Part shown: positions 15,840-37,562 of the stretch, in pieces
Layout: each line of letters begins with the position of its first letter
Numbering within the stretch: position 1 is the first letter of the stretch
Assembly: GCF_000243235.1 (NCBI RefSeq)
Contig: NZ_JH594606.1
Span: 1,407,625-1,471,624, forward strand
Direction of reading: 5' to 3'
From: Gillisia limnaea DSM 15749
GTDB taxonomy: Bacteria; Bacteroidota; Bacteroidia; Flavobacteriales; Flavobacteriaceae
Length of the DNA: 64,000 nucleotides
Made by a program: the position numbers and the translations under genes
Notes under the pieces: generated by a model
Seen by the model: only the letters and a program-made list of their open reading frames with translations
Databases searched by the model: none
What the model was told of the DNA's origin: nothing

Positions 15840-18827
15840 TCATATTTTTGACTTTTTAAGTCTTAGCGCGTTTGCTATTACCGAAACAGAACTAAAACTC
15901 ATTGCCAATGCCGCTATCATTGGTGAAAGCAATATTCCAAAAAATGGATACAATACCCCTGCAGCAATAGGAACTCCTGCAGTATTATAAAACAAGGCGA
16001 AAAACAGGTTCTGCTTAATATTCCTCATTACCTTTTTGCTTAGCTCTTTTGCCTTTAAAACCCCTTGCAGGTCTCCTTTCACCAGAGTGATCTTTGCGCT
16101 TTCAATAGCTACATCGGTTCCGGTTCCCATCGCGATCCCAATATTGGATTGTGCCAGTGCAGGAGCATCATTGATACCATCTCCTGCCATTGCTACCTTC
16201 CTGCCCTCTGCCTGCAAGCGTTTTACTTCGTTGAGTTTGTCTTCCGGCAGCATTCCCGCTTTAAACCCAGAAAGGTGTAATTCCTGCGCAACTGCCGCGG
16301 CGGTGATTTTGTTATCCCCGGTAAGCATATAAACCTCTAACCCGGCATCCATCAATTCCTGGATTGCCTGTTTGCTGGTTTTTTTGATGGGATCTGTAAT
16401 AGTGATGTATCCAACTACTTTTTTATCGATTGACAAAAAAGAAACTGTCTTACCTAATTGTTGCTCATTTTCTACTTCCACTTTTAAATCTAAAGGAATT
16501 TCAGCATTTACATGGTCCATCAGTTTTTCATTCCCAATTGCAAGCTCCTTCCCATCCACATTTCCAGAAACACCCTTTCCAGTAACCGAATTAAAATTGG
16601 AGGCTTCAATTAAGGACAGGTTCTTCTCTTTAGCATATTTAACGGTAGCTTCTGCCAACGGATGCTCACTCATAGAATTAAGGGAAGCGATGTATTTTAG
16701 AATGGAATCTTCAGAAAAATTTGAATCGGAAGAAACCACTTTTTCCACTGAAGGTTTCCCTTCGGTAATAGTCCCTGTTTTATCGATTATAAGGGTATCT
16801 ATTTTATCCATGTGCTCCAAAGCCTGTGCGTTTTTGATAAGCACCCCATTTTGTGCACCTTTCCCAACGCCCACCATTACAGACATTGGCGTAGCTAACC
16901 CCAAAGCACAAGGACAGGCAATGATTAAAACAGCGATGGCATTAATTAGGGCATAGGCATAACTTGGTTCTGGACCGTAAACAGCCCAAATAATAAAGGT
17001 GATAATAGCGATAAGAACCACTATAGGAACAAAATACCCCGAAATTTTATCGGCTAGTTTTTGAATGGGTGCCTGTGAACGGCTGGCATCATTCACCATC
17101 TTGATAATTTGGGCCAGCAGGGTTTCATTCCCCACTTTTTCAGCTTTCATGGTAAAACTCCGGTTGCCATTAATAGTACCTGAAGTCACTTTATCTCCTT
17201 CCTCTTTATCCACAGGAATGGGTTCCCCGGTGATCATAGATTCGTCAAGACTACTCGAACCTTTCTCAATAATCCCGTCTACTGGGATCTTATCTCCGGG
17301 TTTTACCCTTAAAATATCGCCCACCTGAACTTTATCTGTAGCCACAACCTCATCCTGCCCATTTACAACCCGAATGGCAGTGTTGGGGGCAAGCTTTAAC
17401 AAGGCTTTAATAGCGCTGTTGGTTTGACTATGTGCCCGTGCTTCGAGTAACTGGCCTAATAAAACCAAAGTTAAAATCACGGTTGCCGCTTCAAAATAAA
17501 CATGTACGGTTCCCATTTGGGTCTTAAATTGCGCCGGGAAAAGATCCGGAAACAACAAGCCAAAAACACTGAATATCCAGGCAACACCTGCGCCAATACC
17601 TATTAGGGTGAACATGTTCAAATTCCAGGTTATAATAGATCTGTACGCCCGTTCAAAAAACATCCAGGTAGCATAAAATACAACGGGTATGGAAAGCCCC
17701 AGCTGGATCCAGTTCCAGGTTTTCATATCCAACCAATCATATAGCGGGTTTCCCGGGATCATTTCAGACATTGCAATAAGAAATATTGGCAAGGTAAAAG
17801 CAACAGCAATCTTGAATTTTTTGAGGAGTTTTTGATAGGTTTTTTTCTCTGCCGAAATATCTGCCTCCACAGGCACCAGGTCCATTCCGCAAATGGGGCA
17901 GGAACCCGGTTCATCCTTAATAATTTCCGGATGCATGGGGCAGGTATATTGTGTGGCAGATGCTTTCAAACTCATTTCTTCTACCAGGTCCATCCCGCAT
18001 ACAGGGCAATCTCCGGGTTCATCATAAGTTTTATCACCTTCGCAGTGCATGGGACAATAGAAAGTTCCGGTGCCTTTGCCTTTAGCTTGTTCATTTTCCG
18101 CTGTTGCGTCCGGGATATGATCTTCTCCCGGTAAAAATATCTGGTAATTCCCCCCGGCTTCTTTCAAAGCTTCCCGAAATTTTTCAATTCTAATTTGCGA
18201 ATCCATTTCAACGGTCGCTATTGCTTTTTCAAGATCTACCGAAACGTTTTTTACTCCCTCAACAGAATTTAGAGTTTCTTCTACATGCGTTCGGCAACCA
18301 TTACAGGTCATCCCGGAAATCTCATATTCCTGAATAATAATTTCATTCCCTTCCTCATCTTTAGAAATCCTGACTGGGAAAATATTGTAATTACCACCTC
18401 CATCTTTTAATGCCTCTTGAAATTTTTCAATTTCGATATGCTTATCCATTTCAATGGTAGCCCTTGCTTTTTCAAGATTGACAGAGGCTTTGCTTACTCC
18501 CTCAATTTCATTAAGGGTTTTTTCAACATGGGAACGACAACCGTTGCAGGTCATGCCTGTTACGGAGTACTGATGGGTCATCGTTTTCTCTTCATCAGAA
18601 GGAATATCTTTAGCCAGGTTTGAAATGCTGTATTTTCCCCCGGCATCTTTTAGTACTTGCTCGAATGTTTCCAATGGGATGTGGGAATTCATCTCAATAA
18701 CGGCTTCAGATTTTTCAAGATCAACTGCAGCCTTTGAAACTCCTTCTACCTCATTCAACATTTTCTCAACATGAGTCCTGCACCCATTGCAGGTCATTCC
18801 CGTAATTATATATATATGTGTCATCAT
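15840..18827 (-). CDS. copA: Cu(I)-exporting P1B-type ATPase with three HMA and two Cys/Met metal-binding domains
   Basis: Pumps Cu+ out of the cytoplasm at the expense of ATP. The 995-residue protein has three tandem N-terminal HMA domains (CxxC at 13-16, 94-97 and 175-178, each in GMTCNGCR), two heavy-metal-binding modules (YCPMH...CPVCGMDL about 257-283; YTCPMHPE...CPICGMDL about 294-318), then the transporter. It shows the A-domain TGE (MITGEPIPV), transmembrane CPC ([12 protein letters not shown]), phosphorylated Asp in [15 protein letters not shown] and [12 protein letters not shown]. The YN pair in [12 protein letters not shown] and the MSFSS in the last helix are copper-type (P1B-1) signatures. 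Starts at 18827 or 18824 differ by one Met. Last gene of the copper island, with its own promoter candidate. Confidence 0.97.
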
Positions 18828-18844: not shown

Positions 18845-18852
18845 CAAAAGTA
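18845..18852 (-). promoter_or_regulatory. -7 promoter element of copA
   Basis: On the minus strand TACTTTTG fits TAnnTTTG and lies 17 bases upstream of the copA start codon. No clear TTG was found at the expected upstream spacing, as might be expected for an activated promoter. A terminator just upstream (18921-18948) makes an independent copA transcript likely. Confidence 0.5.
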
Positions 18853-18920
18853 TGGAATATCCCACCCCCGGGCTTTTAAAATTATAGAAAAAACATCTGA
18901 ATTTTTTGTATATCCTCATA

Positions 18921-18966: not shown

Positions 18967-19287
18967 TTAAGCAGCATATTGTTTGCAAGCTTCTGCACAT
19001 TCCCTGCAGGCTTTGGCACAATCTTTACAATGCTTATGGTCGTGCTTCCCGCATTCATCGGCACAGGCATTACATACTTTTATACAGTAATCAATAAGGC
19101 CCTGCACATCTTTATAATTGGTAGATAAAACCTGATTTAGAGCTGCGCATACTTCAGCACAAACCCTGTCTGTACGAATACACTTAACCATCATTTTTAC
19201 ATTTTCCTCATCCAGGCATGCATCAGCACAATAATTACAGTGGTTGATACAATTTCCCAGAGCATGAATCAATTTCTCATTTCTCAT
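18967..19287 (-). CDS. Csp-like four-helix-bundle copper-storage protein
   Basis: Probable cytosolic Cu+ sponge. The 106-residue product has 16 Cys, mostly as CxxC or CxxxC along predicted helices (GNCINHCNYCADAC; DRVCAEVC; DYCIKVCNACADEC; HCKDCAKACRECAEAC), the pattern of the Csp/DUF326 family in which Cys line the core of a four-helix bundle. No signal peptide is present, which points to the cytoplasmic (Csp3-like) type. It lies between the HMA-AraC regulator gene (93 bases upstream) and copA and has its own terminator. Confidence 0.88.
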   Translation of the reverse strand: MRNEKLIHALGNCINHCNYCADACLDEENVKMMVKCIRTDRVCAEVCAALNQVLSTNYKDVQGLIDYCIKVCNACADECGKHDHKHCKDCAKACRECAEACKQYAA

Positions 19288-19380: not shown

Positions 19381-19950
19381 TCAATGAGAATCCAGCGAAC
19401 TCCTTTTCTTTACATGATCAAGTTTATATTGGGAGGGAGTAAGACCTGTACTTTTTTTAAATTGGGTAGATAGATAAGCGGCACTGCCATAGCCAAGGTC
19501 CGTTGCGATCTCCGAGATACTGAGTTCATCATATTCCAGTAACTCCTTGACCCTTTCGGTCTTTATTTTCTGCTGAAATTGCTGAATACTTTTGCCATCC
19601 ATCCTTGAAAAAAGCGAACTTAAATGGCTGTAATCCATATTTAATTCGTCGCTAAGGATTACTGAGAGGTTGTTTTTGCTGAAGTTCTTATCATCATAGA
19701 TGCCTTTGATGATAACCGATTTAATGCGGCTAACGAGTCGGGAGTTTTTATCTTCAATAATCTCAAAACCAGTATTCAACAGTTCTTTGGAAAGTTCCTC
19801 TCTTTCCTGAAAGGTTAAAGTCCTTAGAACGGAAACTTCACCCAGCGAAATTGTACCAACTGGAATATCCAGGCGTGAAAATATTTCGCTTACAGAAAGT
19901 ATGCAGCGGGCGCATACCATATTTTTAATAAAAAGGACATTATTTTCCAT
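19381..19950 (-). CDS. HMA-like/AraC-type fusion transcriptional regulator (copy 1)
   Basis: A 189-residue protein with two parts. Residues 1-65 look like a heavy-metal-associated ferredoxin fold: beta strand VLFIKNMVCARCILSV with CxxC, a helix, a strand, and the terminal ELLNTGFEII that matches the usual 'aGY.v' end of HMA domains. Residues about 85-185 are an AraC-type double helix-turn-helix (FQQKIKTERVKELLEYDELS; ISEIATDLGYGSAAYLSTQF; KKSTGLTPSQYK). No sensor kinase partner is present. A one-component Cu+-responsive regulator of the adjacent csp/copA genes is inferred. A homologous regulator lies at 26733-27302. No ligand or operator is proven. Confidence 0.8.
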   Translation of the reverse strand: MENNVLFIKNMVCARCILSVSEIFSRLDIPVGTISLGEVSVLRTLTFQEREELSKELLNTGFEIIEDKNSRLVSRIKSVIIKGIYDDKNFSKNNLSVILSDELNMDYSHLSSLFSRMDGKSIQQFQQKIKTERVKELLEYDELSISEIATDLGYGSAAYLSTQFKKSTGLTPSQYKLDHVKKRSSLDSH

Positions 19951-19971: not shown

Positions 19972-20002
19972 AAAAAAAACCCGGCGAAGGTTATTCGCCG
20001 GG
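19972..20002 (-). terminator. Terminator of the first DUF3347 gene
   Basis: CCCGGCGAA (19980-19988) pairs with TTCGCCGGG (19994-20002), and eight A precede it on the plus strand, which is the T-tail on the minus strand. It lies 9 bases beyond the stop codon of the DUF3347 lipoprotein gene. Confidence 0.88.
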
Positions 20003-20010
20003 AAATTTAA

Positions 20011-20613
20011 TTATTTTATTGTGGCCTCAATTCTACCACATTTCAACATTTTATCACCATAGTACGGATTTCTGATCTCTTTGGAATTTGAAAACCAGTA
20101 ATCTCCTTTTCCTTCAAATGCCATAGGGCAATATTGCTTATAGATCTCTCCTGAAGCAATTGCGCCATTAAGCAAAGTTTCCATAGAGGCAGTAAGTTGA
20201 GAAAATGCTTCCCGTTGCTTATTTACATCACTACTGGTAGAAATATTTCTTGCGGCACTTACAAGCCCGGCATTCACCTCTGTATTTTCTATTGACGCTA
20301 TCATCATTTTTGCGTGATCCTGTGCCATAGTTGCATCTGTTTTTACCAAAGCAGATTTTATCGCGATGTAATGATTATAAATTTCAGCTGTTTTATCGTC
20401 TTTAAATTTCGCCGAGGTAGCATCCATATCCTGGTCATCCATCATAGGCTCATCCCTGTCCATATCATGGTCCATGTTCTCCTGGTGCATTTCATTTTGC
20501 ATAGGTGTTGCAGAATCCTCTTCTTTGGCCTCCCTACAGGACACCAGACTTAAACTCCCTACAACTGCTGCCAAAACCATCACATTTTTAACTTGTTTGT
20601 TCATTTTCTTCAT
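20011..20613 (-). CDS. DUF3347 lipoprotein, Met/His/Asp-rich (copy 1)
   Basis: A 200-residue lipoprotein (lipobox SLVSC, Cys26). After the Cys comes a Met/His/Asp-rich stretch (MQNEMHQENMDHDMDRDEPM) likely to bind Cu ions, then a helical DUF3347 domain from about 70 to the end. The C-terminal signature is QYCPMAFEGKGDYWFSNSKE then IRNPYYGDKMLKCG, which keeps Cys, Met and aromatic residues shared with two other proteins in this island. Periplasmic Cu buffering or chaperone work is inferred. It is 70 bases downstream of the PepSY gene. Confidence 0.85.
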   Translation of the reverse strand: MKKMNKQVKNVMVLAAVVGSLSLVSCREAKEEDSATPMQNEMHQENMDHDMDRDEPMMDDQDMDATSAKFKDDKTAEIYNHYIAIKSALVKTDATMAQDHAKMMIASIENTEVNAGLVSAARNISTSSDVNKQREAFSQLTASMETLLNGAIASGEIYKQYCPMAFEGKGDYWFSNSKEIRNPYYGDKMLKCGRIEATIK

Positions 20614-22740: not shown

Positions 22741-23358
22741 TTACACCTCTTTTTGTACGGTTCCACAGGTTAGCATTTTACTGCCGTAATATGGATTTTT
22801 AATCTCCTTAAATTCACTTAACCAAATTGCACCTTTTCCATCATTAAACATTGGGCAATAAGCCTGATACAGTTTTTTTGAAGTTCCTGTGATTGCAACC
22901 AAGTCGGCCATGTCTTTGCTCAGAATCTCAAAATGCTCTCTTTGGTGATCCATTGCACTTTCAGCAATATGCTCTGCGTGTTCTATAGCATCTTCTATAA
23001 TATCATTTAGTTCTTTTTGCTCTTCTTCAGAATATTTAGCAACATCAAATGCTTTAAAAGCACTCACTACTTTTTTTCCTGAACTTGCAGCTGCTTCCGT
23101 ATTATCTGCAACCAACGCATTTTTAAGTTCTAAATAGTTCACAACAATAGCATCGGATTCAGATTTATTTTGATCCATCGCCATATTATCAGATGAATTC
23201 ATTGAAGAATCATTCATTTCCATGTCATCATGTTCCATCTCCATATCGTCTTGATCCATTTCATGATCATCTTCTTTCTTAGTATCCCGGCAGGACGTAA
23301 CCGTAAATATTAATATTGCCAAGAGCATTAGCCCTAAAATTGGTTTTAAATTTTTCAT
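22741..23358 (-). CDS. DUF3347 lipoprotein, Met/His/Asp-rich (copy 2)
   Basis: A 205-residue lipoprotein (lipobox TVTSC, Cys23) followed by an extreme Asp/Met/His stretch (DDHEMDQDDMEMEHDDMEMN) and a helical DUF3347 domain ending QAYCPMFNDGKGAIWLSEFK then EIKNPYYGSKMLTCG. The domain signature matches copy 1 and the C-terminus of CusB. It sits 35 bases downstream of the multicopper oxidase and directly abuts the next gene. Periplasmic Cu handling for the oxidase is inferred. Confidence 0.85.
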   Translation of the reverse strand: MKNLKPILGLMLLAILIFTVTSCRDTKKEDDHEMDQDDMEMEHDDMEMNDSSMNSSDNMAMDQNKSESDAIVVNYLELKNALVADNTEAAASSGKKVVSAFKAFDVAKYSEEEQKELNDIIEDAIEHAEHIAESAMDHQREHFEILSKDMADLVAITGTSKKLYQAYCPMFNDGKGAIWLSEFKEIKNPYYGSKMLTCGTVQKEV

Positions 23359-23393: not shown

Positions 23394-26024
23394 TTAAAAC
23401 CTTATTGATAAACCTCCTCCGGCACCAAATCTATTTTCGTAGCTGCCCATTAAAGAGAAGTTTTTAGATAAGAAATATTCCAATCCAGTACTCCAAACAA
23501 CTTCTTTTTTAAAATTATCGCCGGCAGGTAGATCATTTACCCAACCAAAATCTGTCTGATATTCATACACTCCAAAAATGGCCGTTCTTGGGAAAATCAT
23601 AATCTCTCTGCTTAAACTAATTTGAGGGCGTAATTCACTATCTATTCGCACATCCAGATTGAACAAGTAAGGAGTTAGGTAACGAATCCCTGCAATCGCC
23701 GTAGTATTAAGTTCCTTTATACTGTCTTCCATTTCATTCTCCACATTTACCCCTCCAAAAACACGTAGATAATCAAATAAGTAACGCTCATAACTAAATT
23801 CAGCTTCTAAATTCTTATTCCAGCCATATTCTGCGGTTATGTTGAATTGATTACGAATATTGGAAGTCACTAAGTTTAATTCCGTCATATGTGAAGCTGC
23901 GTCCAGCATTCCCCAAGAGTACCACATATCGGTTTCTTTAACCAATTTTGAAACCGGAAATTCTTCTAAACGCTCATCTCTAGGGGTGTCATAAGAAAAA
24001 ACTCTAGCCATTCCTCCCATCATGTGATATAGTATATGGCAGTGGAAGAACCAATCCCCATACTCATCACCATAAAATTCGATGGTGATCTTCTGCATAG
24101 GAGGAACATTTACGGTATGCTTTAAAGGGGAGTATTCTCCATTCTCATTGATCACTCTAAAGAAATGCCCATGCAAGTGCATAGGGTGGTGCATCATGGT
24201 TAGATTGTTAAGGGTAATTCTAGTAACCTCATCACCTTTAATTTTAATCTTATCAGTTTCTGAAAGTGGCACTCCATTCATACTCCAGATATACCTATTC
24301 ATATTACCGGTAAGGTTTAATAGGATTTCGTTTACAGGAACATCTTTCTCATAGGAAGTTTTTTCCGGAGATTTTAGATAATTGTAATTATATTCTGAAA
24401 ACATATCCATCCCTTTCATTCCTTTCATTTCCATTTTAGAGTCGTCTTTCATCTCCATTTTAGAATGATCTATTTTTGACATTGACATCGAGTCTTTCTT
24501 CATTCCTGCCCGTCCGGCAGGCGGGTCCATTTTTGAGTGATCCATCTTGGAATGGTCCACCATCATAGTATCCTCCTTCATCTCCATTTTAGAATGATCT
24601 ATTTTTGACATTGACATCGAGTCTTTCTTCATTCCTGCCCGTCCGGCAGGCGGGTCCATCTTGGAATGGTCCATTTTGGAATGATCCATTATCATAGTAT
24701 CCTTCTTCATCTCCATTTTAGAATGATCCATTTTTGACATTGCCATCGAGTCTTTCTTCATTCCTGCCCGTCCGGCAGGCGGGTCCATCTTAGAATGGTC
24801 CATCATCGTGGTATCTTTCTTCATATCCATCTTAGAGTCATCCATTTCTGAATCGTCCATTTCCATACCTTCCATTTGCATTCCATATTTGTCCTGCATT
24901 TCAAAACGTTCATCTTTCTTTGGCTGGAATTTTAACGCTGGAGCACCCATCTTCATTTTCATTTTGGCCATTTCTTGCATCATAGCAATTTTATCGGGTC
25001 TTGGTACATCTTCTGCTTCAATCACTTTTCCAGATCCTAAAAATGCTGAGGCCATTCCAGATCCATCCTGGGCTGTGATTCTAAATTCTATTTTTCCATT
25101 TTCAGGAATTTCAACAATAAAATCGTAGGTTTCTGCAACAGCAATAAATGTTTTATTTCTTTTAACAGGTACAACATTCAATCCGTCTGCAGAGATCAAG
25201 GTAGGGGTCTCCCCTCCAAATGTCATCCAAAATGAAGTTGAGGCAGAACCATCAATAATTCTTAACCGTACTTTTTCCCCTGCTTCAAATTGAGGATATT
25301 CTACTTTTTGTTCACCATTTATTAAAAAAGCAGGATAATACACATCTGCAATATCTGCTCCCTCCATTCGTTGTCTCCAAAAATCTACCTGAGCACCTAA
25401 TGCCCCCCGGGCAATTACCTGGTTTAAGGGCGTGGATGTACCCTTTTTCATATTATACCACTCGTTTCCCCTTTTCAGGTTTCTAAGAACATCTCCAGGT
25501 TTCTCATTGGTCCAGTCTGAAAGTATTAAGACCAATTCTTTATCATACTCAAATACTTTCTCTTTAGGCTGAATTACAAAAGAACCAAAAACACCACTTT
25601 GCTCCTGAAGCATGGTATGTGAATGATACCAATAAGTTCCAGATTGGGTAATTGGAAATTCATATTTAAAAGTACTTCCAGGTTCTATAGGGGGAGTTGT
25701 TAAATAAGGAACTCCATCAAAGAAATTAGGTAAAATTAATCCATGCCAGTGAATGGAAGTTTCTACACTCATTTCATTTTTTACATAAATAACAGCATAT
25801 TCTCCTTCTTTAAACTCGAGGGTAGGTCCCGGAATACTTCCATTCACTGTCATACCCATTACATTTTTCCCCGCTTTATTTACCATTTCCTCTTTCAAGG
25901 TCAAGGTGTACTCATGCTCTGGCAAATTATCCGGATTACCTTCTCTGGCCTCAGGGTTTTGAGAAAAACCCGTAACGCCAACAAAAAGCAGGAAAATAAC
26001 AATTAAGCAATTATTCTTTTTCAT
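23394..26024 (-). CDS. CopA-type multicopper oxidase with CopB-like C-terminal domain
   Basis: Probable periplasmic Cu(I) oxidase. The 876-residue product starts at ATG 26024 with a signal peptide (MKKNNCLIVIFLLFVGVTGF); an upstream in-frame start lacks support. Copper sites are present: HWHG, WYHSH, HPMHLHGHFF and HCHILYHMMGGM (type 1/2/3 ligands with axial Met). Between cupredoxin domains 2 and 3, residues about 395-530 are a Met/His/Asp/Lys-rich insert of tandem repeats (DHSKM, MKKDSM). From about residue 680 the protein continues as a beta-rich domain (SWGMLDAASHMTELNLVTSN; EFSYERYLFDYLRVFGGV; ending GGGLSIRF) resembling CopB outer-membrane proteins. Fusion of the two Cop functions in one chain is inferred. 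It heads a run with DUF3347 and haem-domain genes. Confidence 0.92.
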   Translation of the reverse strand: MKKNNCLIVIFLLFVGVTGFSQNPEAREGNPDNLPEHEYTLTLKEEMVNKAGKNVMGMTVNGSIPGPTLEFKEGEYAVIYVKNEMSVETSIHWHGLILPNFFDGVPYLTTPPIEPGSTFKYEFPITQSGTYWYHSHTMLQEQSGVFGSFVIQPKEKVFEYDKELVLILSDWTNEKPGDVLRNLKRGNEWYNMKKGTSTPLNQVIARGALGAQVDFWRQRMEGADIADVYYPAFLINGEQKVEYPQFEAGEKVRLRIIDGSASTSFWMTFGGETPTLISADGLNVVPVKRNKTFIAVAETYDFIVEIPENGKIEFRITAQDGSGMASAFLGSGKVIEAEDVPRPDKIAMMQEMAKMKMKMGAPALKFQPKKDERFEMQDKYGMQMEGMEMDDSEMDDSKMDMKKDTTMMDHSKMDPPAGRAGMKKDSMAMSKMDHSKMEMKKDTMIMDHSKMDHSKMDPPAGRAGMKKDSMSMSKIDHSKMEMKEDTMMVDHSKMDHSKMDPPAGRAGMKKDSMSMSKIDHSKMEMKDDSKMEMKGMKGMDMFSEYNYNYLKSPEKTSYEKDVPVNEILLNLTGNMNRYIWSMNGVPLSETDKIKIKGDEVTRITLNNLTMMHHPMHLHGHFFRVINENGEYSPLKHTVNVPPMQKITIEFYGDEYGDWFFHCHILYHMMGGMARVFSYDTPRDERLEEFPVSKLVKETDMWYSWGMLDAASHMTELNLVTSNIRNQFNITAEYGWNKNLEAEFSYERYLFDYLRVFGGVNVENEMEDSIKELNTTAIAGIRYLTPYLFNLDVRIDSELRPQISLSREIMIFPRTAIFGVYEYQTDFGWVNDLPAGDNFKKEVVWSTGLEYFLSKNFSLMGSYENRFGAGGGLSIRF
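24447..24802. repeat. 129-bp tandem repeat with embedded 21-bp palindrome
   Basis: Inside the multicopper oxidase gene a 43-codon unit repeats with a period of exactly 129 bases. Each unit carries CCTGCCCGTCCGGCAGGCGG plus one G (24505-24525, 24634-24654, 24763-24783), an inverted-repeat core (CCTGCC/GGCAGG) translated as PPAGRAG between Met-rich segments. Units are nearly identical, implying recent duplication or gene conversion. The reading frame stays open. Confidence 0.92.
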
Positions 26025-26042
26025 ACGTAGATATTTAATGGT

Positions 26043-26065
26043 CTCCCGATAGATTCTATTGGGAG
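26043..26065 (-). promoter_or_regulatory. Leader hairpin upstream of the multicopper oxidase gene
   Basis: CTCCCGATA (26043-26051) and TATTGGGAG (26057-26065) form a 9-bp stem with one wobble and a 5-base loop, 19 bases before the ATG of the oxidase gene. The short distance suggests an effect on mRNA stability or translation; no T-run follows, so it is not a terminator. Confidence 0.4.
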
Positions 26066-26163
26066 TAATTCGCATATCTTCAGCGGTTTTGGTATCCTAT
26101 TCACGTTATACTCATTTCATAATCTTTTTTATTCCAGCAATTTTTGAAATCAAAATGATTTCA

Positions 26164-26658
26164 TTATTCCTTAGCATTCTCCAACCTTTCGATCATTCTT
26201 TTCATTTCGCTTATTTCCTTTCTTTGGGCTTTTATAATATCCTCAGCCAGTTTTTTTACCTCTGGATCTGATATAGCTGCACGCTCACTCGTTAAAATAG
26301 CAATAGAATGGTGTGGAATCATAGCTTTCATCCACAGCACATCACCAATTATTGGACTTTGAGCCCTTACCAATCCTAATGCACCTAAAAATAGCACCAA
26401 GCTGCCTACATAGATCGCGATGTTCTTTTTCCTATTCTTGTACATATTGAGCATAAGGGAGAGCATTATAACCGCCATTGCCGATATTCCTAAACAGCTC
26501 ATATAAAACCGAGTCAGACTAAAATAAACATGGTCAAATGCATAGGTGTTTAGATACATTGTGATATACATGGCCAAAAAGGATAAACCAAGCATCAGGA
26601 AAAACTTAGCGTAATTATTTCCTTTCATTTCGTGTTGACTTTTTTCTTTTGAATTCAT
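26164..26658 (-). CDS. DUF305 membrane protein
   Basis: A 164-residue protein with three predicted transmembrane helices (about 20-40, 50-70, 78-97) and a C-terminal DUF305 segment (WMKAMIPHHSIAILTSERAA, then SDPEVKKLAEDIIKAQRKEI). The MIPHH motif is the conserved core of DUF305, a ferritin-like helical domain common near copper-resistance genes. A metal-binding role through the two His and nearby Met is inferred. It lies between the HMA-AraC regulator gene (74 bases upstream) and the multicopper oxidase gene. Confidence 0.87.
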   Translation of the reverse strand: MNSKEKSQHEMKGNNYAKFFLMLGLSFLAMYITMYLNTYAFDHVYFSLTRFYMSCLGISAMAVIMLSLMLNMYKNRKKNIAIYVGSLVLFLGALGLVRAQSPIIGDVLWMKAMIPHHSIAILTSERAAISDPEVKKLAEDIIKAQRKEISEMKRMIERLENAKE

Positions 26659-26732
26659 ATTGGTTAGTTTCTGATTATCACACTAAAGTATTGTAAAACT
26701 GCCTCTTAAGTTGTTAAAATTTTGGATACTAT

Positions 26733-27302
26733 CTATAATATTTGGTCTAAAGAATTCCTAAAATTCTCATTTAAGCCTTTATATTCTGTCAAACTCATGC
26801 CTGTTTCATTCTTAAACTGACGAGATAAATAATTCATATTATTATAATCTAAAAGCTGACTTATCTCTGTAAAATTATATTCCTGAGACTGAATTAATTC
26901 CTTTACTTTCTCAATTTTCAGCTTTATAAAATACTTTTCTATAGTGATCTTTTCGGTTATTGAAAATAACTTACTGATTTTGGAATAATCTGTATTTAGG
27001 TGATCCGAAAGGAAGTTCGATAAAGTTCCTTCGGTTTTAAGAGGCAGTTTTTTTAATAGCTTGATAAGCTCAATTTTCACTGCTTCCGAAAAAACTGCCT
27101 CGGGACTGCTAATGAGTATAAAACCATTTTCAGCTAAAACCTTATTCAATTTCCGCTTATCAGAAACTTCATCTTCAGTATCAATAATCACTCTTCCTAA
27201 AATAACTTCCAAAGTATGTACGCCTTCAGCATTTAATTCGTTTCTCACAACCTTAATGCATCGGTCGCAAACCATATTTTTTATGTAGTATTCTTTGGTC
27301 AT
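26733..27302 (-). CDS. HMA-like/AraC-type fusion transcriptional regulator (copy 2)
   Basis: A 189-residue protein, the same length and layout as the regulator at 19381-19950. Residues 1-65 are HMA-like: YYIKNMVCDRCIKVVRNEL with CxxC, VHTLEVILGRVII, and a terminal VLAENGFILI. Residues about 85-185 are an AraC-type DNA-binding domain (IEKYFIKLKIEKVKELIQSQ; FTEISQLLDYNNMNYLSRQF; KNETGMSLTEYK). It lacks the basic tail of copy 1. Sequence identity between copies is modest outside the CxxC motif and the HTH core, so they are old paralogues or came in separately. It lies between the Cys-rich lipoprotein gene and the DUF305 gene, suggesting control of the oxidase or cus genes. Confidence 0.8.
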   Translation of the reverse strand: MTKEYYIKNMVCDRCIKVVRNELNAEGVHTLEVILGRVIIDTEDEVSDKRKLNKVLAENGFILISSPEAVFSEAVKIELIKLLKKLPLKTEGTLSNFLSDHLNTDYSKISKLFSITEKITIEKYFIKLKIEKVKELIQSQEYNFTEISQLLDYNNMNYLSRQFKNETGMSLTEYKGLNENFRNSLDQIL

Positions 27303-28502: not shown

Positions 28503-30260
28503 TTATTGTATCGTTTCTTTTAATTCCCCGCAGGTTAGCATAGCACTGCCATAGTAAGGGTTTTTAACTTCGGAAGAAGCACTTAACCAATCGGCTCCCT
28601 TGTTGCTATCTGCCATTGGGCAATGCAGCACATAAAGTTCTTTATTGGTTAACTGAAAGGTTTTTACCATTCCTATCATCGTTGTAGAAAGTTCGTCAAA
28701 CCTCTCCCGCATACTCTCAATTTTGGCCGCACCGGAGATGATCACGGCATCGGCTTTTAGCTCCTTTTCATAACTTTCCCACACTATTTTAGCTTCCGGA
28801 TTGAAACCATCTACAGTTCCAATACTTTTTTCAAATGCTTGCGCGTGCTGTCTGGCTTGGGAATAATTATCTTTAACCAGTGCGTCCTTCAGCCTGAGAT
28901 AATCATCAACCAGCTTATTAAGATCATTATTTACATTCTTGCTTACTTCAACCTTAATTTGTCCTGTCTGGTCCTGCTGCGTCTGGCCATGGTCATGGCC
29001 GGTACTCTGCTTACCTCCATCTGGATTCATCATACTTGTTCCGCCAGATAACTGCACCGCGGCATCTACGGTAAAGGCTCCGTTGGATACAATTTCTTCC
29101 CCCGGCTCAAGGCCTTCCTGTACTACATAAGAATCTCCAAGGGAAGGACCTAAAGTTATCTCCCTAAGCCTGAAGCCGGCTCTCCCATCTACATCTGTCT
29201 TTACATAGACTATAGAGCGTTTTCCTGTCCAAAGCACTGCCGATTTCGGGATGATCAATTCCTGGGTCTGGCCGGCACTCATAGTATTTTTTACTACACC
29301 AGATGCAAACATTCCCGGCTTCAATCTTCCGTCTTTATTATCTACTTCTACACGTGCTGTGGACACCCGCGTTTGGGAATCCAATAGCGGATCTACAAAA
29401 CTGATCTTTCCTTCAAAGGTTTCTCCCGGGAAAGAGTTTATGGTGAATTCCACTTTGCTGCCTTCTTTTACCCAGGCAAGCTGCCCTTCATAAAGATCAA
29501 ATAAAACCCAAACCTTGGAAAGGTCTGAAATTTCATAGATGGGCATGCCGCGTTCTACATAATCCCCCAGATCTACCATTTTTTCGGTTACAATTCCATT
29601 TACATCGGCTCTTATAGAAAAGCGCTGTATGGCCTTTCCGCCCGATAATATTTGCTCTATCTGAGCGTCTCCTATCTTCCAGTTTCTCAGTTTTGTCTTT
29701 GCGGCTTCAAATAATTCAGGCTGACTTGACCTTATAGCGGCAGCCTGGAGCAATTCTTCCTGCGCTGTAACCAGCTCTGGCGAATAAACGGTTGCAAGGT
29801 TTTGGCCGCGACTCACTTTCTCGCCCGTAAAATTAATTGCCAGTTGTTCTATTCTTCCCGGAATATGGGTGGACTGGGAATAAGAAGCTCTTTCGTCTAC
29901 CTGTACCTTACCGTTGAGCCTCATCTCCCGCGAGGCATCGCCTCTTCCCACCACCATCGTCTGCACATTGGCAAGCTTCATTGCATTTTCACTCATTTGG
30001 TACAATCCCGGATCTCCCCCATCTCCTGTAATTTCCAGCGGAATAAGGTCCATCCCACAAATAGGACAGGACCCGGGTTCATTTTGCCTTATCTGGGGGT
30101 GCATGGAACAAGTCCATATTTCCTGATGTTCTGATGATCCAATATTTTGATCATCTGATGATTCGGTCTTATGATTATTTGATGGTTTTATTATCCATCC
30201 CGCAATTAGCCCTATTAATAAGAGGCCAATTGCCAAAAGTATGTTTTTTCTATTTTTCAT
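28503..30260 (-). CDS. CusB-type RND efflux adaptor fused to DUF3347
   Basis: Periplasmic adaptor linking the CusA pump to the CusC channel. The 585-residue protein has an N-terminal membrane/signal helix (NILLAIGLLLIGLIAGWII), a heavy-metal-binding module ([20 protein letters not shown] then GMDLIP, about residues 48-75), a membrane-fusion core at about 90-410 (RIEQLAINFTGEKVSRGQNL; IPKSAVLWTGKRSIVYVK) and a C-terminal DUF3347 domain at about 440-585 ending LHCPMADSNKGADWLSASSE then VKNPYYGSAMLTCG. The DUF3347 tail replaces the role CusF might have in proteobacteria, by inference. Its start overlaps the four-helix-bundle gene by 11 bases. Confidence 0.93.
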   Translation of the reverse strand: MKNRKNILLAIGLLLIGLIAGWIIKPSNNHKTESSDDQNIGSSEHQEIWTCSMHPQIRQNEPGSCPICGMDLIPLEITGDGGDPGLYQMSENAMKLANVQTMVVGRGDASREMRLNGKVQVDERASYSQSTHIPGRIEQLAINFTGEKVSRGQNLATVYSPELVTAQEELLQAAAIRSSQPELFEAAKTKLRNWKIGDAQIEQILSGGKAIQRFSIRADVNGIVTEKMVDLGDYVERGMPIYEISDLSKVWVLFDLYEGQLAWVKEGSKVEFTINSFPGETFEGKISFVDPLLDSQTRVSTARVEVDNKDGRLKPGMFASGVVKNTMSAGQTQELIIPKSAVLWTGKRSIVYVKTDVDGRAGFRLREITLGPSLGDSYVVQEGLEPGEEIVSNGAFTVDAAVQLSGGTSMMNPDGGKQSTGHDHGQTQQDQTGQIKVEVSKNVNNDLNKLVDDYLRLKDALVKDNYSQARQHAQAFEKSIGTVDGFNPEAKIVWESYEKELKADAVIISGAAKIESMRERFDELSTTMIGMVKTFQLTNKELYVLHCPMADSNKGADWLSASSEVKNPYYGSAMLTCGELKETIQ

Positions 30261-30609
30261 TTTTTCTGTTTTTTATGGAGGAAGAAATAATCCTTGAAAG
30301 GAGTTTTTTAATGGATAAAATTTTTATTAATAGGTCCCCTGGTTGAGGATAATTTAGACTTTTCTCACACAACTGAAGCCAATATTCTGTTTCATCGGCC
30401 TCTTTCATAGCAATTACACATTTTGAAATAAAATCATTCCGGCTATGGGCATTTTGAGCCTCCCTCATATTGGCTCCTATAGAAGTCCCTGATTTTAAAA
30501 GCTGCCTGGAAATCACATATTTTTTATTACTCTCCAACAATTCAGAAAATTCAATAATAGAAAGAGCAAAGTCAAAACTCAGTTCTAATATTTCATTCTT
30601 ATTCTCCAT
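30250..30609 (-). CDS. Four-helix-bundle protein (TIGR02436/S23 type)
   Basis: A 119-residue all-helical protein: FDFALSIIEFSELLESNK, QLLKSGTSIGANMREAQNAH, then FISKCVIAMKEADETEYWLQ. These are the hallmarks of the TIGR02436 family first noticed as S23 intervening-sequence proteins. The function is unknown; members bind no known metal. It overlaps cusB by 11 bases and sits between cusC and cusB, so it is translated with the efflux genes. It has no signal peptide, so it should be cytoplasmic. It may simply be a passenger insertion. Confidence 0.88.
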   Translation of the reverse strand: MENKNEILELSFDFALSIIEFSELLESNKKYVISRQLLKSGTSIGANMREAQNAHSRNDFISKCVIAMKEADETEYWLQLCEKSLNYPQPGDLLIKILSIKKLLSRIISSSIKNRKNEK

Positions 30610-37497: not shown

Positions 37498-37562
37498 ATT
37501 TATAGAAAAATGAAAGGTGAGAAACCCAAACTTTAAATACTTTTACAAAAAAAATAAAAGCT

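Follow-up and report, generated by a model that had tools for sequence, protein, structure and literature searches.

A candidate copper-sensing regulator with an HMA-like domain joined to an AraC-type DNA-binding domain in Gillisia limnaea, and its family in the Bacteroidota

A small protein encoded beside the copper genes csp and copA of Gillisia limnaea DSM 15749, here called HMA-AraC regulator 1, makes a good candidate for a type of copper sensor that has yet to be described. Judged from its modelled fold, an MxCxxC motif and profile homology, its N-terminus is a member of the HMA superfamily, and its C-terminus is, by sequence and model, an AraC/XylS-type DNA-binding domain. No description of an HMA-AraC regulator was found in the open-access literature, to which the search was essentially confined. 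The protein is probably a Cu(I)-responsive one-component activator. The features discussed are listed in Table 1, where positions refer to the window, i.e. the whole stretch of 64,000 nucleotides that was analysed.

Domain structure and copper locus

The reading frame of regulator 1 (189 aa) is intact from ATG to stop. Residues 9–16 read KNMVCARC, an HMA-type MxCxxC motif, and residues 60–65 read TGFEII. According to the preliminary description of this DNA, the first 65 or so residues follow the HMA pattern, and the fold models and family profile bear this out. AlphaFold2, supplied with an alignment of 17 family sequences, places strands at residues 4–9, 31–35, 38–41 and 63–65 and helices at 14–26 and 47–59 within residues 1–66, with ten-residue block means of pLDDT between 77 and 95 over residues 1–70, and the same secondary-structure elements appear when residues 1–70 are modelled alone. 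The predicted order, beta-alpha-beta-beta-alpha-beta, is that of the ferredoxin-like HMA fold. A Foldseek search of the PDB with the N-terminal model ranks CopZ (2qif) first at a probability of 1.00; the best ten include CopZ, CsoZ, MerP, HMA7 and Atx1, and GolB is listed too. The E-values are weak despite the good probabilities (best 6.3e-3), with an aspartate kinase at rank 5 and an ACT domain at rank 15 also in the list. A profile of the 17 N-terminal family sequences finds HMA domains of ATP7B at 1.8e-12, CopA (copper ATPase entry 1p6t) at 3.1e-5 and CopZ at 8.7e-4. A ferredoxin-like fold outside the HMA group, such as ACT, was rejected because copper HMA proteins top both the fold and the profile lists. 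Searched singly, regulator 1 has no match to Pfam HMA (PF00403) and reaches the ATP7B HMA chain with an E-value of only 0.77; the Pfam model does match 11 of the 17 family members one by one at E up to 10 (best 3.4e-5), regulator 1 not being included. The link to HMA thus comes from the family profile and the fold rather than from a single-sequence search.

The C-terminal DNA-binding domain, also part of the preliminary description, is confirmed by Pfam matches to HTH_18 and HTH_AraC (4.6e-14), and it is the only Pfam domain of the protein above cut-off. Its modelled fold is like that of the DNA-binding domains of AraT and YesN, 6swi being matched.

Table 1. Features of the copper locus, by position in the window (all on the minus strand)
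Feature	Position	Strand	Basis
copA, Cu(I) P-type ATPase	15840..18827	-	three HMA and two HMBD stretches (Pfam, NCBIfam)
TACTTTTG, -7-like element; its TTTG lies 23 bp past the copA operator	18845..18852	-	read from sequence
Operator predicted for copA; two boxes at 21-bp spacing, 44 bp upstream of copA start	18872..18909	-	genus model
csp, four-helix copper storage protein (DUF326)	18967..19287	-	Pfam and NCBIfam
HMA-AraC regulator 1 (subject of study)	19381..19950	-	ORF, Pfam and AlphaFold2
AraC-type DNA-binding domain, residues 99–176 of regulator 1	19423..19656	-	HTH_18 (5.4e-18) and fold
HMA-like domain, residues 1–66 of regulator 1	19753..19950	-	fold models and family profile
CARC, residues 13–16 of regulator 1, predicted metal site	19903..19914	-	family conservation
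Terminator-like hairpin with T tail, separating regulator 1 from DUF3347 gene	19980..20002	-	
DUF3347 gene, upstream of regulator 1	20011..20613	-	Pfam
Multicopper oxidase, copper resistance type	23394..26075	-	TIGR01480, 418.3 bits (cut-off 478.95)
DUF305-family gene, after regulator 2	26164..26658	-	grouped by BLAST with DUF305 protein of locus L154
Predicted operator, 51 bp upstream of DUF305 gene; overlaps end of regulator 2 gene	26710..26747	-	genus model
HMA-AraC regulator 2 (NMVCDRC)	26733..27302	-	second family copy in window

The surroundings of regulator 1 are copper genes on the minus strand: a multicopper oxidase, DUF3347 genes (the second at 22741–23358), csp and copA. As had been noted earlier, csp and copA adjoin the regulator gene, following it downstream in that order. 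The csp product matches the NCBIfam Csp1 model at 49.1 bits, under its cut-off of 100. The multicopper oxidase contains a long insert rich in Met, His and Asp, in which near-repeats such as MDHSKMDPPAGRAGMKKDS occur. Further along, an ORF of 119 aa (30250–30609) lies between a gene grouped with CusB and one that we take, from its resemblance to TolC-type proteins, to encode an outer-membrane protein.

Regulator 1 shares with CopZ, Atx1 and the N-terminal domains of CopA (PF00403) the beta-alpha-beta-beta-alpha-beta order, the MxCxxC in the first loop and an aromatic residue after the Gly of the last loop, the last being a known HMA feature. Unlike them, it is fused to a DNA-binding domain, is diverged in sequence, and has Arg before the second Cys, as do 98% of its copper-linked relatives. 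With the AraC/XylS family it has in common the C-terminal domain with two helix-turn-helix units and the AraT/YesN fold, and the predicted tandem boxes 21 bp apart would be a further likeness, but where AraC has a cupin-like effector domain as its input, the input here is HMA-like and ca. 66 aa long, in a protein of only ca. 190 aa. The proposed role, one-component control of copA, is that of CueR, a member of the MerR family. No MerR family match occurs among the 5 Pfam matches of regulator 1 or the best 25 of its 30 NCBIfam matches. In 392 Bacteroidota genomes no CueR scores above the NCBI cut-off, and 35 have matches below it at E<=1e-30. CsoR also shares the proposed role; its domain (PF02583) is not among the Pfam matches of regulator 1. 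CsoR-family matches occur in 94 of the 392 genomes, 10 of which also hold the HMA-AraC family, and there are none in the genome of the window.

Spread of the family and its copper neighbourhood

The HMA-AraC family gives hits at E<=1e-25 in 193 of the 392 Bacteroidota genomes, frequently as multiple copies, and none in the other 199. Within the genus it occurs in 15 of 16 genomes; the sole match in the sixteenth (66% complete) is C-terminal, at 4.8e-11. The second copy in the window, regulator 2, adjoins a DUF305 gene and the multicopper oxidase. A third copy in the same genome lies outside the window (L107:5472-6041; G000:C2:91171-91722) and carries NMISLRC, in which Ser replaces the first Cys. 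The gene that follows this copy belongs to a cluster found near five Ser-type members and one Cys-type member. Plasmids carry the family too, in 32 records from Hymenobacter, Spirosoma, Mucilaginibacter, Bernardetia and others. Six of these were inspected, in all of which the member is annotated as an AraC family or helix-turn-helix protein. In five it lies beside a P-type ATPase, a multicopper oxidase, DUF3347 or an annotated Cu/Zn efflux transporter; in the remaining one, from Runella rosea, a Ser-type member lies beside an ice-binding protein. Members at two loci (L018, L022) come from bins named Bermanella and Williamsia, which may be misbinned Bacteroidota contigs or cases of transfer.

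Residue conservation and gene neighbourhood were compared in 136 sequences (120 regions, 15 loci and the window), which gave 154 matching ORFs, 153 of them passing a coverage filter. This sample is biased, as the 15 loci were found through patterns including FIKNMVCA and the 120 regions come from the top-scoring matches to an alignment made up mostly of Cys-type sequences. Position 13 is Cys in 118 of the 153 members and Ser in 35, and the second Cys (C16) is kept in 152. With the conservation in copper-linked members given below, this led to the rejection of a chance CxxC in regulator 1. Copper genes were scored in six groups (P-ATPase, multicopper oxidase, Csp, small HMA, HMA-MauE and CusB) within four genes and 5 kb. 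They lie beside 95 of the 118 Cys-type members and 2 of the 35 Ser-type members; the latter two adjoin each other at a single locus. Arbitrary loci, one each from 40 of the same genomes, have them in 2 cases. The co-occurrence with copper genes, named as a check in the preliminary description, holds across the phylum, and it persists when the pattern-biased, genus and window loci are set aside (63 of 78 Cys-type vs 2 of 31 Ser-type). None of the six groups is found near 23 of the 118 Cys-type members. Among the 69 neighbouring P-type ATPases, CPC is present in 63 and CPH in 5, the last one having none of the listed motifs. DUF3347 genes occur near 42 of the 118 Cys-type members and none of the 35 Ser-type members, so that a copper function for this unnamed domain is likely.

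A wider copper set, made up of the six groups with DUF3347, DUF305 and one more cluster, divides the Cys-type members into 98 that are copper-linked and 20 others. In the copper-linked members M11, V12, C16 and G37 are invariant (100%), R15, G61 and F62 stand at 98%, and C13 is at 100% by definition of the class. The other 20 have F62 in 60% and Leu62 in 35%. In Ser-type members Leu62 reaches 94% and Tyr replaces N10 in 88%, both residues being near the HMA metal site; these members lack the CxxC and retain the second Cys and the conserved Gly positions. Histidine kinases lie near 15 of the 35 Ser-type members vs 1 of the 118 Cys-type members, and response regulators near 11 of the 35; at the control loci, clusters of kinases or regulators occur in 3 of 40. 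PAS histidine kinases, response regulators, CheB and CheR adjoin the members at L091, L086, L072 and other Ser-type loci. This association with signalling genes suggests that the input has been rewired.

On a tree of the family all 35 Ser-type rows fall on one side of a branch, together with three Cys-type rows (L090, L103, L125), and the type changes only 3 times. The association of type with copper neighbours is therefore nearly a single split rather than many independent trials, and an independent-pairs test, with 3 pairs only, is out of reach of significance. Since the 35 members with Ser13 group together and rarely adjoin copper genes, copper linkage is not a property of the entire family. 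The earlier expectation that CxxC is kept in homologues therefore stands for the copper-linked members and for C16, and fails for the first Cys of the Ser-type members. The earlier reading of regulator 1 as a copper sensor is supported in part, by its HMA fold and homology, its AraC domain, the CxxC, the copper linkage and the operator-like repeat before copA.

A predicted operator

A motif search (24 columns, 40 starts) over 59 intergenic stretches, each running from a Cys-type gene to the next copper gene, reached a likelihood of 348.2, vs 79.5–87.0 in four shuffled sets (25 starts each). The motif is a tandem repeat, roughly TTnTRTAA..TTTTCCAnAATTnTGTAAC, whose autocorrelation peaks at 21 bp (3.07) and does not exceed 1.03 at other shifts between 15 and 29. 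Such tandem boxes are known for AraC-type regulators. Downstream of the repeat is AnnTTTG, the TTTG lying 24 bp past the second box (46 of 59 aligned); before copA this element is TACTTTTG, which resembles the -7 element consensus of Bacteroidota promoters. A model built from 15 sequences of other orders finds the repeat at p<0.01 in 21 of 22 sequences from the taxonomic family or order, and in only 7 of 17 stretches from the genus. The same repeat is present after 10 of 16 Ser-type genes (p<0.01, with a model from all non-genus sequences) and after 8 of 21 Cys-type genes that no listed copper gene follows, which means that it marks the regulator family and not copper. Its presence after both types makes it seem that the DNA preference of the family predates the change of input. 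The Ser-type member at L107 has a strong 21-bp repeat before its next gene (score 26.3).

With a genus model made from 11 genus sites, the window being left out, a scan of 127,926 window positions ranks the site before the DUF305 gene first and that before copA second. The model from other genera is weaker here, placing the former at rank 8 and the latter outside its best 15. Within its own stretch the DUF305 site has p-values of 0.007 and 0.015. Sites placed like the copA operator are also present in loci L157 and L158, and a leave-one-out scan finds, at 12 of 21 genus loci, a site with a score of at least 12 that precedes a DUF305, DUF3347, csp or P-ATPase gene by 24–54 bp. Some of the further genus sites scoring at least 12 are inside genes. 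The genus model also gives 17.3 to 37524–37561 (plus strand), close to the 17.8 of the copA site; no copper gene is there, and the site, which ends 1 base before a gene start, unlike the operators, was taken for chance. No repeat was found before csp of the window (p 0.74; best rank 111). By eye, the region upstream of this gene has a different block in common with L157, which none of the models fits. A run with 38 columns, trained on the taxonomic family and order only, was discarded as it converged on the end of the araC coding sequence. Across the genomes of 22 relatives, one exact consensus occurs 23 times in 14 genomes, compared with 5 for the reversed pattern, and only 8 of the 23 sites precede a copper gene (6 P-ATPase, 2 small HMA).

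Proposed mechanism and significance

From the computed domains, residues, neighbourhood and repeat we infer metal binding, binding to the repeat and activation. Cu(I) would be loaded onto Cys13 and Cys16 of the HMA domain, either directly or from a CopZ-like chaperone, and loading would shift the placing of the C-terminal AraC domain. This domain would then occupy the pair of direct-repeat boxes that lies, with its 21-bp spacing, directly upstream of the next copper gene's promoter, and the bound regulator would recruit RNA polymerase. The targets would be copA for regulator 1, and the DUF305 gene and multicopper oxidase for regulator 2.

HMA domains pair with one another, and the one in regulator 1 could instead serve as a docking face for a copper-loaded chaperone or an HMA domain of CopA (that of the window has three HMA stretches), the complex rather than the metal controlling the DNA-binding domain. 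Small HMA proteins, all of one cluster, are found beside 7 of the 118 Cys-type members, but this also means that a separate small HMA gene is nearby at few loci, and the fact that copper-linked members conserve the Met, the loop aromatic and the second Cys fits metal binding by the domain itself at least equally well; docking is considered unlikely. CxxC HMA domains bind several soft metals, so that the regulator might respond to another thiol-loving ion (Ag, Au, Hg, Zn or Cd) or to thiol stress, with the copper genes only part of its regulon. The CPH ATPases and the one without a listed motif, the appearance of GolB and MerP in the Foldseek list, and the plasmid member next to an annotated Cu/Zn efflux transporter would agree with this, but most neighbours (CPC ATPases, multicopper oxidases, Csp, CusB) fit copper best, leaving a different signal quite improbable.

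Direct activation by Cu(I) is also preferred over repression relieved by copper, which is very improbable given the position of the repeat: it ends ca. 24 bp before the TTTG, upstream of the -7-like element, the geometry of AraC-type activators, which bind upstream of that element. Other Cu sensors such as CsoR and CopY do repress, as stated in a survey of marine genomes (PMC10141476). There is hardly any likelihood that regulator 1 is an ordinary AraC-type regulator in which the HMA-like part is a relic of a fold, its location among copper genes inherited and its signal of another sort. The Ser-type members, which keep fold residues without the CxxC and often have kinase neighbours, do suggest that the domain can serve without this metal site, but the metal-site residues largely track the neighbourhood, F62 going with copper-linked Cys-type members and Leu62 with Ser-type ones.

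Cytosolic copper sensing in the Bacteroidota is poorly known. The marine survey, which covers few Bacteroidota, gives only two-component and ECF homologues there (PMC10141476), and for Bizionia argentinensis another study describes MerR-like and CopY-like proteins without copper sites and proposes two ArsR-family proteins instead (PMC11213822). With moderate confidence, the HMA-AraC proteins may be regarded as a distinct class of cytosolic Cu(I) sensor-activators and a main one-component copper regulator of the Bacteroidota, spread also on plasmid-borne copper islands, in which one clade would have lost the metal site and been rewired to signalling genes with its DNA target much the same. A copper-inducible promoter system for Bacteroidota is a possible use. 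As the family occurs in about half of the genomes searched and combines a sensor-like domain, a predicted operator and natural variants of the metal site, the question of how copper is sensed in the cytosol of these bacteria becomes directly testable.
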